Of a DNA stretch of 64,000 nt, positions 4,505 through 31,310 are shown one piece after another (positions within the stretch are counted from its first letter, which is position 1; every line of letters starts with the position of its first letter). The notes under the pieces are model-generated. The model was given only the letters and a program-made list of their open reading frames with translations, was not told the DNA's origin and searched no databases. This DNA is from Polynucleobacter sp. UK-Gri1-W3 (lineage in GTDB: Bacteria > Pseudomonadota > Gammaproteobacteria > Burkholderiales > Burkholderiaceae): the NCBI RefSeq assembly GCF_018881595.1, contig NZ_JACVQA010000001.1, forward strand, positions 185,625 through 249,624, given 5' to 3'. Both the position numbers and the translations under genes were made by a program.

Positions 4505-4539
4505 AAATGGATTGTAGATTCGCGGATTAGAATGTGCTT

Positions 4540-6027
4540 ATGAATAAATTCAGACTAAAACCTCTCTTACAGGGTTTATTCCTGGCAGCCCTGACTGGTG
4601 GAGCAATTTCATCAGCGCATGCCCAGACCCAGCAAGATGGATTGCAAACCGGTGAAGCAGTATTTGAAGTGCTCGCCTCAGAAATTGCCATTCAGCGGGG
4701 TGAGGCTGGGTTGGCATATAACACCTACCTGGAAATGGCTCGTCAATATAAAGATCCTAGGCTCGCCCAAAGAGCTATGGAAATTGCGATTGCAGGTGGA
4801 TCTCCTGATTTAGCCATGCAAGCAGCCAAAACATGGGATGAACTATCTCCAAACTCGGATACAAAACCCAAAGAAGTATTGGTGACCCTCTTGGTATTAA
4901 GCAACCGCTGGAATGATGCAGTAAAGCCAGCCATTGCTTTACTACGCCAACAAACACCTGCGGAACAAGAAAATACCCTCTTACAGTTACAAGCATTACT
5001 AGCTAAAGCGAAAGATGAGTCTGAGGCCTTACGCGCTTTTTATGACATTGCATCTTCTGTCAAGATTCCTCCCAAGGATCCTGGCTTACTTTATACGTAC
5101 GCCATGTCTGCTGAAAAAGCAGGTCACATTGATGTAATGGAAAAAACTTTGCGCGATATTTTGCGCAAGAACCCAAATGATGTGAATTCGTTAAATGCTC
5201 TTGGTTACTCCTTAGCTGATCGCAATATAAAGCTACCTGAAGCACTTACACTCATTAGCAAAGCACATCAACTCTCACCAAAAGATAGTTTTATTTTGGA
5301 TAGCCTAGGTTGGGTAAACTTCCGTCTTGGCAAAAATACACTTGCCTTAGAACAGTTGCAGCAAGCATTTGCCATGAAACCAGAAGCAGATATTGCAGCC
5401 CATACTGGTGAAGTGTTATGGGCAATGAATCGCCGTCCTGAAGCAGAAGAAATGTGGCGTCAAGGACAAAAGTTAGATGCCAATAATCCAACCCTCAAAG
5501 AAACCTTACAACGTCTAAAGCCTGACTGGGCAAAGGATGACCAGATTTCCAAGGGCTCGTGGGATGGGCGCTTTTCAGTCAAAGTGATTGGTTTAACTGA
5601 GTCGCAAAACCAAGGTGGCTCTGGTGGCTTTACTTTGACCCAAGACGCATTAAAAGATGTTTTAGAAATCCGTAGCCCTATGGGCGGATCAATTGCGAAA
5701 ATCACTATTACACCTGGTGAAGCTACGCTCGAAAGTGATGGCAAAGTTGTTACTGCATTGGATGCAGATACATTGGTACAAAATACTTTAGGCCTTCCGC
5801 TACCAGCGCGTGGACTATCCAATTGGTTAAGAGGCGAAGTGCGCCCCGGAAGCGAAGCAAGTATCGAGAGAAACCCCAAGGGTCAAGTGAGCAAAATTAG
5901 TCAAGACGGTTGGGACTTGGTATACACATGGAGTAATACCAATCGGCTTGAAAAACTGATCATGACACGCAGCTCTAATATCGGCTCGATTGATATTCGC
6001 CTCGTATTTGATCGCCCGAATGATTAA
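4540..6027 (+). CDS. Periplasmic TPR protein fused to a LolB-like domain
   Basis: A 495-residue fusion (ATG at 4540; an in-frame GTG at 4534 adds two residues). Residues 1-29 form a signal peptide ending in AHA. Residues about 35-325 are helical tetratricopeptide repeats, clearest at 200-315. Residues about 341-492 match LolB, the outer-membrane acceptor of lipoproteins: WDGRF start, then GGFTLTQ, LEIRSPMGGS, ADTLVQNTLGLPLP and QDGWDLVYTW. In related bacteria a TPR gene and lolB are separate neighbours upstream of ispE. The protein contains no cysteine, so it cannot carry the lipid anchor of normal LolB. The loop that bears a functional Leu in E. coli LolB appears to have Met381. There is no frameshift between the halves. 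Confidence 0.85.
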   Translation: MNKFRLKPLLQGLFLAALTGGAISSAHAQTQQDGLQTGEAVFEVLASEIAIQRGEAGLAYNTYLEMARQYKDPRLAQRAMEIAIAGGSPDLAMQAAKTWDELSPNSDTKPKEVLVTLLVLSNRWNDAVKPAIALLRQQTPAEQENTLLQLQALLAKAKDESEALRAFYDIASSVKIPPKDPGLLYTYAMSAEKAGHIDVMEKTLRDILRKNPNDVNSLNALGYSLADRNIKLPEALTLISKAHQLSPKDSFILDSLGWVNFRLGKNTLALEQLQQAFAMKPEADIAAHTGEVLWAMNRRPEAEEMWRQGQKLDANNPTLKETLQRLKPDWAKDDQISKGSWDGRFSVKVIGLTESQNQGGSGGFTLTQDALKDVLEIRSPMGGSIAKITITPGEATLESDGKVVTALDADTLVQNTLGLPLPARGLSNWLRGEVRPGSEASIERNPKGQVSKISQDGWDLVYTWSNTNRLEKLIMTRSSNIGSIDIRLVFDRPND

Positions 6028-6038
6028 GCAAAACCATT

Positions 6039-6917
6039 ATGGCGAACTCTGATCAGTTAACACTTCGGTCGCCAGCCAAGCTCAATCTTTTTCTTCATAT
6101 CATTGGGCGCAGAGATGATGGATATCATCTACTTCAATCTGTTTTTCAGCTGATTGATTGGTGCGATACCATTCACTTAAAAAGCATTTCTGAAAACGAA
6201 GTGCGCCGCATTAATGCAATCCCTGGCGTTCCGCCCGAACAAGATTTAGTCGTACGCGCGGCAAACTTACTCAAAGATTTTTGCAAGATTGAAGCTGGTG
6301 TTGAAATCGATCTTCAAAAAGAAATTCCGATGGGTGCCGGTATGGGGGGTGGATCCTCTGATGCAGCTACTACCCTAATTGGCCTGAATGCCCTTTGGAA
6401 TCTCAATCTATCCAAAGAAACGCTTTGCACCCTGGGATTAAAGCTTGGGGCTGATGTCCCATTTTTCATTTTTGGTCAAAATGCCTTTGTTGAAGGCATT
6501 GGGGAGAAAATTCATGCAATTTCCCTTCAAAGCCCTGATTTTTTGGTGCTCTTTCCCAATAAAGGCATAGCAACCGTTAGCATTTTTCAAGACCCGGAAT
6601 TGACCCGAGATCACGCTCAGATTACAATTGATGGCTTTCTTGCATCGCCAATGTCATTTCAGTCCAATGATTGTCAGGCGGTAGCGATGCGGATTTGCCC
6701 AGAAGTGAAGCAAGCTTTGAATTGGATTAACCAGGCAATACCGGGCTCACAGCCCCGAATGTCTGGCTCTGGAAGTAGCGTTTTTGCAGTCTTAGATCCT
6801 AAGACTGACACCGCAAAACTAGAAAATCTTTTACAAAATCTTCCTAAAGGGTGGGTAGGCCGGATTGTTCGGGGGCTAAATAAAAATCCCGCTTACAATT
6901 TGGTTTCTTCAGATTAA
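6039..6917 (+). CDS. ispE: 4-diphosphocytidyl-2-C-methyl-D-erythritol kinase
   Basis: IspE phosphorylates CDP-methylerythritol in the MEP route to isoprenoids. The 292-residue protein has the GHMP-kinase features: catalytic-site Lys14 in SPAKLNLFLH, the glycine-rich ATP loop PMGAGMGGGSSDA starting at residue 97, the ADVPFF motif around 148, and the C-terminal MSGSGSSVFA motif. It starts 11 bp after the TPR-LolB gene and is probably cotranscribed with it. tRNA-Gln follows 5 bp after the stop. Confidence 0.96.
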   Translation: MANSDQLTLRSPAKLNLFLHIIGRRDDGYHLLQSVFQLIDWCDTIHLKSISENEVRRINAIPGVPPEQDLVVRAANLLKDFCKIEAGVEIDLQKEIPMGAGMGGGSSDAATTLIGLNALWNLNLSKETLCTLGLKLGADVPFFIFGQNAFVEGIGEKIHAISLQSPDFLVLFPNKGIATVSIFQDPELTRDHAQITIDGFLASPMSFQSNDCQAVAMRICPEVKQALNWINQAIPGSQPRMSGSGSSVFAVLDPKTDTAKLENLLQNLPKGWVGRIVRGLNKNPAYNLVSSD

Positions 6918-29876: not shown

Positions 29877-31310
29877 ATGCGTCAATTTCTAAAGAACTTT
29901 GCCCTGATAGCCGTTGGTCTTATCGCCGGTGTAGCAGCTACGATTCAGCTCTCTGCGACCGCCCAGCAAGGCACTCAGCTACCCCTAGATGAGCTTCGCA
30001 CGCTATCGAATGTCTTTGCCCAAATTAAGCGCGAATACGTTGAGCCTATTGAAGACAAGCAACTATTAACGGATGCTGTTAAAGGAATGGTCAGTAGTCT
30101 TGATCCTCATTCCACTTTCTTAGACAAAAAAGATTTTGCAGAAATGCAAGAGATGACCTCTGGAAAGTTTGCTGGTCTCGGAATAGAAATTACTTCTGAA
30201 GATGGGGTAGTTAAGGTTTTAAATCCAATTGAAGATAGCCCAGCAGCACGAGCAGGACTTCAAGCTGGAGACCTCATTACACGCCTTGATGATAAACCTG
30301 TACGCGGTATGTCTCTAGACAAAGCTGTGCGGACTATGCGCGGCGAACCTGGAACCAAAATTACTTTGACGGTATTTCGTAAGAGTGAGGAGCGTAGCTT
30401 TCCGGTCACAATCACTCGCGCAGAGATTAAAGTTCAGTCAGTCAAAACAAAAATTTTGGATAACGATATTGCTTGGGTACGCATCACAAGCTTTCAAGAG
30501 CGTACCGTTCCAGATCTTGCCAAGAAATTAACTGATATTGCCAATCAAGATCCAAAACTCAAAGGCATCATTCTTGATCTACGCAACAATGGCGGCGGTC
30601 TATTACAAGGAGCTGTGGGTGTGGCTGCAGCATTCTTGCCTGCTGACGCAGTCATTGTCTCTACTAAAGGCCAGTCCCCAGATTCAAAACAGGTATTTAA
30701 TGCAACGCCAGCGATGTATCGCCTAAATGAGTCTGGCGACCCTTTGGCAGGTGTTCCAGCGATATTTAAGAAATTGCCTATGGTGGTCTTGGTAAACGCT
30801 TATTCCGCCTCAGCCTCCGAGATTGTGGCTGGCGCACTCCAGGACTATAAACGCGCAACCATTATTGGAAAAACGACCTTTGGTAAGGGCTCTGTCCAAA
30901 CCGTTCGCCCCCTGACCAATGATTCAGCGCTGAAGATTACTACCGCCTATTACTACACCCCAAGTGGCAAGTCGATTCAGGCTTTTGGTGTGAAACCAGA
31001 TATTCCAGTAGATCAAAACAGAGATGGTGATCCAGATGATGTATTAATCACTCGTGAGATTGATAGCGAAAAACATCTCCGCAATAAGCAGTCTGCCGAA
31101 GATAAGTTGATTAAAGATCGGGAACAACGTCGCATCGAAGAGTTACAGCGCATTGAAGAAAAAAATGCCAAGAAGACTCCTGAGGAAAAAGAGAAAGAGA
31201 AAAATAAGAAGCCTACTGAACTGGGTAGTGCAGATGACTTCATGCTTTCTCAAGCGGTGGCCTTTATTAATGGACAGCCCGTAAAGCGCTCTGCATCTAA
31301 GCTCGAATAA
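29877..31310 (+). CDS. ctpA: Carboxy-terminal processing protease (S41 family)
   Basis: A 477-residue periplasmic serine protease. A signal anchor (about 8-24) precedes the N-terminal helix region, a PDZ domain (about 95-170, GLGIEI and AGLQAGDLI) and the S41 protease core with the Ser312/Lys337 dyad in NAYSASASE and TTFGKGSVQ. The C-terminal part is a highly charged Lys/Glu-rich stretch (about 400-447). Such enzymes trim C-termini of cell-envelope proteins and murein hydrolases. It lies between gpmA and moeB, probably in one operon. Confidence 0.94.
   Translation: MRQFLKNFALIAVGLIAGVAATIQLSATAQQGTQLPLDELRTLSNVFAQIKREYVEPIEDKQLLTDAVKGMVSSLDPHSTFLDKKDFAEMQEMTSGKFAGLGIEITSEDGVVKVLNPIEDSPAARAGLQAGDLITRLDDKPVRGMSLDKAVRTMRGEPGTKITLTVFRKSEERSFPVTITRAEIKVQSVKTKILDNDIAWVRITSFQERTVPDLAKKLTDIANQDPKLKGIILDLRNNGGGLLQGAVGVAAAFLPADAVIVSTKGQSPDSKQVFNATPAMYRLNESGDPLAGVPAIFKKLPMVVLVNAYSASASEIVAGALQDYKRATIIGKTTFGKGSVQTVRPLTNDSALKITTAYYYTPSGKSIQAFGVKPDIPVDQNRDGDPDDVLITREIDSEKHLRNKQSAEDKLIKDREQRRIEELQRIEEKNAKKTPEEKEKEKNKKPTELGSADDFMLSQAVAFINGQPVKRSASKLE

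Follow-up and report, generated by a model that had tools for sequence, protein, structure and literature searches.

In Escherichia coli LolB (1iwm, PF03550), Leu68 is crucial to activity and the lipid anchor is not needed (PMC11885536, citing Tsukahara 2009 for the latter). Among soluble versions made in the laboratory, F. johnsoniae LolB1 (C17G) fully complements (PMC11885536), and soluble E. coli mLolB has been used to receive Pal from LolA (PMC9457489). A recent review calls the need for LolB to be a lipoprotein "somewhat paradoxical", and argues that an outer-membrane anchor keeps it from inserting lipoproteins wrongly into the inner membrane (PMC11784454). According to the same review, soluble versions of lipoproteins have been assayed from multicopy plasmids, which weakens them as evidence that an anchorless LolB is adequate at its natural dose. 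Caulobacter vibrioides has a bifunctional LolA, by which the last Lol step proceeds without lipid-anchored LolB (PMC11784454). The accessible sections of a further paper (PMC12569750) hold nothing on lipidation.

Pseudomonas aeruginosa LbcA (PA4667), an outer-membrane lipoprotein with a lipidated Cys17, binds the protease CtpA and activates it; this binding requires helix H1 of LbcA (PMC8764530). Contacts of LbcA in the CtpA-LbcA complex include Phe48, Leu53, Tyr54, Leu56, Leu57, Val58, Leu61, Ala62 and Val87 (PMC11021448). The substrates of P. aeruginosa CtpA include three predicted outer-membrane lipoproteins, and lbcA shares its operon with two essential genes, lolB and ipk (PMC6050968). 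No description of a LolB-TPR or LolB-LbcA fusion, or of one in Polynucleobacter, was found in a literature search.

The window, a stretch of 64,000 nucleotides from Polynucleobacter sp. UK-Gri1-W3, carries such a fusion. We consider it probable that this is a genus-wide lbcA-lolB fusion, the LolB half of which inserts lipoproteins as the sole, anchorless LolB, while the TPR half still serves CtpA. That an anchorless LolB can work is already known; what is new is a whole genus relying on one chromosomal copy. Polynucleobacter, with many cultured strains and an anchorless single-copy LolB apparently since its common ancestor, offers a direct test of the need for the anchor. The fusion also ties the Lol pathway to the control of cell-wall hydrolases by LbcA and CtpA.

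The fusion gene and its LolB domain

The open reading frame and its translation run without interruption from the ATG at 4540 to the stop at 6027. The features of the locus are as follows.

4540-6027, + strand: lbcA-lolB fusion gene, 495 aa (P0001), from the frame and domain searches
4540-4623, + strand: Sec signal peptide, residues 1-28 (AHA/Q cut), no cysteine, by reading of the translation
4651-4695, + strand: helix 38-52, putative equivalent of the CtpA-binding LbcA H1 (V41, F42, V44, L45, A46, I49, A50), from alignment with the residues of PMC11021448, conservation and the predicted helix
4645-5517, + strand: LbcA-like TPR superhelix, residues 36-326, 17 predicted helices, from sequence search and predicted model
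5518-5559, + strand: linker, residues 327-340, poorly conserved (identity 41%, dN/dS 0.25), with low pLDDT at 332-336
5560-6012, + strand: LolB domain, residues 341-491, from Pfam profile and predicted fold
5680-5682, + strand: Met381, at the place of E. coli LolB Leu68 in a protruding loop, from alignment, model and conservation
6039-6917, + strand: ispE (ipk), downstream neighbour of the fusion, named from sequence and place without a profile search
29877-31310, + strand: ctpA, 477 aa, E=3e-108 to P. aeruginosa CtpA (7rpq)

An in-frame GTG at 4534, two codons 5' of the ATG, is an alternative start, and the frame opening NVLM recurs in most of the Polynucleobacter loci read. By reading, the signal peptide ends in SSAHA/Q. 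The window protein (own-genome locus L001) contains no cysteine in its 495 residues which, together with the AHA/Q end of the signal peptide, makes the usual acylation route impossible. An internal start yielding a separate LolB was rejected, as no signal sequence was read between residues 326 and 341. An assembly artefact or sequencing error was likewise rejected, since frames of fused length were found in 140 of the 144 genus genomes with a match.

A profile search placed the LolB domain (Pfam PF03550) at residues 342-491 (E=2.6e-24; 86.4 bits against a cut-off of 23.7), whereas the NCBIfam LolB equivalog TIGR00548 scored 41.6 bits in the window protein, below its cut-off of 59.6. An AlphaFold2 model of the whole protein was built from 33 genus sequences (mean pLDDT 81.4, pTM 0.57), and another of the LolB half alone (mean pLDDT 86.8, pTM 0.80); a half-barrel is seen in both. 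Among the chains ranked highest by Foldseek, the model of the LolB half matched E. coli LolB 1iwm with Z 18.9 (rmsd 1.8 over 148 residues), V. cholerae LolB with Z 19.5 (rmsd 1.8 over 148) and X. campestris LolB with Z 19.3. Six LolB entries lay at Z 18.2-19.5 and P. gingivalis LolB at 12.0, compared with at most 11.5 for LolA chains. In the fold comparison of the whole-protein model, LolB entries took ranks 1-4. The predicted fold of the C-terminal half is thus that of LolB rather than that of LolA.

On the pairwise alignment, Met381 falls opposite residue 68 of E. coli LolB; in the model it occupies the turn that joins predicted strands 372-378 and 384-391. Among 68 genus frames, the residue here is V (24 frames), M (20), L (11), I (10) or F (three), and so hydrophobic in all 68. 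The domain, the half-barrel fold, the hydrophobic loop residue and the single copy are features shared with E. coli LolB. Unlike LolB, the window protein has no lipobox, carries LolB as the C-terminal domain of a longer protein and falls below the equivalog cut-off. The preliminary description of this DNA had claimed a continuous TPR-LolB fusion, no lipid anchor and, apparently, Met381 in the loop of Leu68, and had made the LolB fold of the C-terminal part a matter for structure prediction; all four points are borne out by these results.

The same 68 frames, including one cut at a 3' contig end (L112), were used for the other alignment statistics. Mean pairwise identity was 69% for residues 38-95, 52% for 96-180, 65% for 181-325 and 64% for the LolB half, with lower values in the linker (41%) and the signal peptide (26%). 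Median dN/dS was 0.060 for the LolB half and 0.051-0.055 for the TPR parts, compared with 0.25 in the linker and 0.37 in the signal peptide; these ratios, from a hand-written Nei-Gojobori calculation on 16 sequences, are rough, as dS is near saturation and 34-84 of 120 pairs were usable. The LolB half is under purifying selection and conserved about as well as the TPR half, so it is most likely in use.

Could the LolB half be in use for something other than insertion? It might no longer be an insertase and instead act as a substrate or lipid sensor for a CtpA adaptor, with LolA alone ending the pathway. Its fusion to a relative of a protease adaptor, the predicted outer-membrane lipoproteins among P. 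aeruginosa CtpA substrates (PMC6050968) and the precedent of bifunctional LolA in Caulobacter (PMC11784454) are in line with such a role. We regard it as unlikely, however, given the hydrophobic loop residue in 68/68 genus frames, a predicted fold of LolB and not LolA, the retention of LolB in all 117 good genus genomes (see below) and the ordinary lolB kept by relatives. Under the preferred reading, in which the LolB half remains an insertase, LolA would hand lipoproteins to this half, and the hydrophobic loop around Met381 would insert them into the outer membrane.

Another reading assigns no lasting role to the fusion itself: the linker would be cut after export, freeing a soluble LolB, and the fusion would be mere co-export. 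Residues 327-340 are indeed variable and modelled with low confidence; yet the linker is short, and we know of no cleavage site in it. We judge this reading very unlikely.

Copy number and lipidation in Polynucleobacter

The own genome (2.30 Mb in 22 contigs, rated 100% complete) has the fusion as its single PF03550 match at E<=0.001, and the profile search gave no second LolB match up to E<=10. It also has one LolA (locus L062) and one LolC/E-type gene over the cut-off; a second LolC/E-type match, at 20 bits, is far below it. BamD of this genome has an ordinary lipobox, LLSGC, which means that lipoproteins still need delivery. The fusion is most likely the cell's sole, anchorless LolB. The last Lol step would then proceed without a lipid-anchored LolB, as with the bifunctional LolA of Caulobacter vibrioides; unlike in that case, a separate LolA exists here and the domain is LolB-like. 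The likeness to E. coli mLolB and F. johnsoniae LolB1 C17G lies in a LolB without lipid, whereas those proteins are engineered and have no TPR part, and the fusion is natural, chromosomal, single-copy and genus-wide.

Across the genus, 144 of the 151 genomes searched gave a match, exactly one each. Among genomes with a completeness of 90% or more and a contamination of 5% or less, the figure was 117 of 117, again one each, with many of them in a single contig. The open frame was 455-546 codons long in 140 of the 144, and 306, 393, 149 and 419 codons in the other four; the three of these short frames that were read run off a contig end (the fourth is that of G101). Completeness is 66-85% in the seven genomes that gave no match. 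In G137, one of these, the fusion is present over its first 308 positions and then meets the contig end; three of the other six gave weak TPR matches only, and three gave nothing.

Loci were read in two overlapping sets. The first comprised 71 of the 144 loci: that of the window, the 30 with the highest scores and a further 40 that include the lowest-scoring; 67 have complete frames of 483-546 codons, four are cut at a contig end, and all are fused over the length available. The second set came from a search of a species collection, from which 80 of 339 confirmed loci were kept; their titles read Polynucleobacter, unnamed beta-proteobacterial or Burkholderiaceae, and include P. necessarius isolate PPGSP2. 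In this set, 79 loci are complete and fused and one is cut. The suggestions, made earlier from the window alone, that the genome might hold no other lolB and that the fusion might be fixed in the genus have both held up, with a single match in the own genome and every locus fused in the two sets.

Could a second lolB, unrecognised or unassembled, nevertheless do the work? Divergent candidates are conceivable, such as a gene between the TPR gene and ispE in family f18 that gives no LolB match, and the own genome is in 22 contigs. Against this stand its completeness rating of 100%, with no further match at E<=10, and the one match in each of the 117 good genus genomes, many in one contig. The chance of a second lolB appears slight indeed.

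Complete frames free of cysteine numbered 41 of 67 in the first set and 54 of 79 in the second. The cysteines of the remaining genus frames lie nearly all in the signal peptide, with a later cysteine in three (L136, L141, L187). The usual lipobox pattern, [LVI][ASTVI][GAS]C, was matched by none of the 67 and by one of the 79 (L175), in which LVAC lies within the hydrophobic stretch of the signal peptide and is followed by a signal-peptidase-I-like site. A looser pattern was matched by five of the 67 (L013, L117, L125, L131, L144) and six of the 79 (L175, L181, L185, L216, L220, L223), lists that come from overlapping sets, with some entries from the same species. A lipobox-like cysteine is thus not conserved over the genus; single members may be lipidated. 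The ASAC in the signal peptides of L117, L131, L216, L220 and L223 is readable as a lipobox, like the LVAC of L175. An A-X-A site was found in the signal peptide of 41 of 68 genus frames, and cleavage-like sites were seen by eye in most of the other 27. The fusion protein would be exported by Sec and probably cut by signal peptidase I, without gaining a lipid anchor.

The TPR half, LbcA and CtpA

Beyond the preliminary description, the TPR half turned out to be related, judged by its sequence, to LbcA. Pfam TPR matches were found in the window protein, the two strongest at residues 181-222 and 257-303, and P. aeruginosa LbcA topped the sequence search of solved structures (8sxe, E=4e-45; 7rqf, E=2e-44; next hit, 5e-10). 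The whole model matched LbcA 7rqf with Z 18.2 and rmsd 12.5; many other TPR proteins reached similar Z scores, and this predicted fold match adds little to the relationship. The fusion resembles LbcA in this sequence match, in the H1-like helix, in the TPR superhelix, in the linkage with lolB and ipk (ispE) and in the presence of CtpA. Unlike LbcA, which has a lipidated cysteine, 11 TPRs and 29 helices, it has no cysteine, 17 predicted helices and a terminal LolB domain.

By alignment, LbcA Leu53, Tyr54, Leu56, Leu57, Val58, Leu61, Ala62 and Val87 correspond to V41, F42, V44, L45, A46, I49, A50 and L75 of the fusion. Positions 41, 42, 44, 45, 49 and 75 are hydrophobic or aromatic in 68/68 genus frames, position 46 is A, T or S, and position 50 is A, S or G. 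Phe48 of LbcA corresponds to Gln36, a variable position in the 68 frames, so that an equivalent of Phe48 is not kept. The CtpA encoded in the window is nearest to P. aeruginosa CtpA (E=3e-108), and its H1-receiving region still starts with LPLDELRT. A CtpA-binding helix and CtpA itself thus appear to be both retained, and the fusion is perhaps still a CtpA adaptor, the TPR half of which would most likely bind and activate the protease by way of helix 38-52. We infer the insertase activity, the CtpA binding and the periplasmic position of the fusion protein.

An extension of this reading would make the fusion a single hub, in which lipoproteins, lipid-bearing cell-wall hydrolases among them, are received by the LolB half, and surplus or uninserted ones are degraded by CtpA together with the attached LbcA-like adaptor. 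We hold this to be rather unlikely. If true, outer-membrane lipoprotein delivery would start without any lipoprotein, and a soluble hub would couple insertion to proteolysis.

How would an anchorless LolB reach the proper membrane? Outer-membrane selectivity could come from the hand-over by LolA, from tolerance of mis-insertion, or from a partner of the TPR half. A related alternative is that the LolB half is held at a membrane by protein, either through a TPR partner bound to the outer membrane or peptidoglycan, or through an uncleaved signal peptide in the inner membrane. TPR superhelices do bind proteins, and P. aeruginosa LbcA binds CtpA and cell-wall hydrolases (PMC8764530, PMC6050968). 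However, LbcA tethers CtpA by its own lipid and not the reverse (PMC8764530), that lipid is absent here, and the A-X-A sites in 41 of 68 genus signal peptides, with cleavage-like sites by eye in most of the other 27, speak against an uncleaved form. Such a protein-held LolB seems to us somewhat improbable.

The preliminary description had proposed that the TPR part replaces the anchor by binding an outer-membrane partner. This proposal is not supported so far: of the 18 relatives outside the genus with a located H1, 12 have a TPR protein in which not even a loose lipobox pattern fits, so that no evident anchor was brought into the fusion from this side. In the other six, a loose lipobox lies upstream of H1, where the signal peptide is expected, and three of these (L093, L101, L103) fit the usual pattern.

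Relatives outside the genus and the origin of the fusion

LolB was found in 388 of 398 family genomes, 114 of 120 order genomes and 98 of 114 class genomes, samples that include at least 61, three and one genus members, respectively. Of the 55 stand-alone lolB loci read first, 30 of them from the best-scoring family genomes, every one has a cysteine behind a hydrophobic N-terminal stretch; the lipobox pattern fits 51, and the four others read QAC (L051), PGC (L067) and AGC (L073, L077). A lipobox-like cysteine was also present in 10/10 order-sample loci, 7/7 class-sample LolB loci and 16/16 long-frame family loci.

No fused frame outside the genus was found among the matches listed for the family (about 150 entries), 30 genomes of small genera re-searched in full, and the order and class loci read. 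Parallel fusions were considered and rejected. In the 16 non-genus frames of at least 400 codons among the matches listed for the family, and in the frames of at least 397 codons from the order sample (three) and the class sample (four), a lipobox-like cysteine marks the LolB start in every case. What precedes LolB in these long frames is DNA, mostly GC-rich, that is open in the wrong reading frame or, in L243, a frame that crosses a gap in the assembly. A frame of 620 codons in G638 with a weak second match was, by reading, not a LolB protein. The fusion protein gave no match to viral contigs.

A second point beyond the preliminary description is that the two fused genes are neighbours in relatives. 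An LbcA-like TPR gene lies directly before lolB in 19 of 20, the exception being a reduced genome of 1.2 Mb, and the TPR stop falls 41-199 bases before the cysteine at or near the lolB lipobox. Between two such adjacent genes, fusion required that the stop codon of lbcA and the signal sequence of lolB be lost. The presence of the fusion in every genus locus read points to a single event before diversification. We infer that neighbouring genes fused before the genus diversified and that LolB lost its anchor.

G168 (genus g19 of the same family, 99% complete) encodes a TPR protein of 676 aa (L270, 880-2910) and has no LolB match. By reading, no lolB-like gene lies downstream of its TPR gene, which makes it a further genome in which to ask how the Lol pathway ends without LolB.

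The TPR part of Polynucleobacter, with about 280 residues, is short compared with that of most relatives: the distance from H1 to the TPR end is 452-556 residues in 17 of the 18 with a located H1, and 263 in L098 (genus g21), which nevertheless has a separate lolB. In family f18, which belongs to the same order, the TPR proteins are 328-337 aa long (L267, 2526-3512; L268, 2532-3545; L269, 2407-3399), with a separate gene downstream. These were rejected as a sister lineage, being no closer over the last 165 TPR residues than several other relatives; the short form in f18 and in g21 is perhaps a parallel shortening. The f18 gene between the short TPR gene and ispE (L267, 2003-2521; L268, 1918-2529; L269, 1821-2441) gave no match to the LolB profile at E<=10 and no Pfam LolB in any of the three genomes, which are 98-99% complete. 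Its product, of 172-206 aa, carries a cysteine behind a hydrophobic N-terminal stretch (MAGC, IAGC and GFGC) and is a candidate LolB too divergent for the profile.
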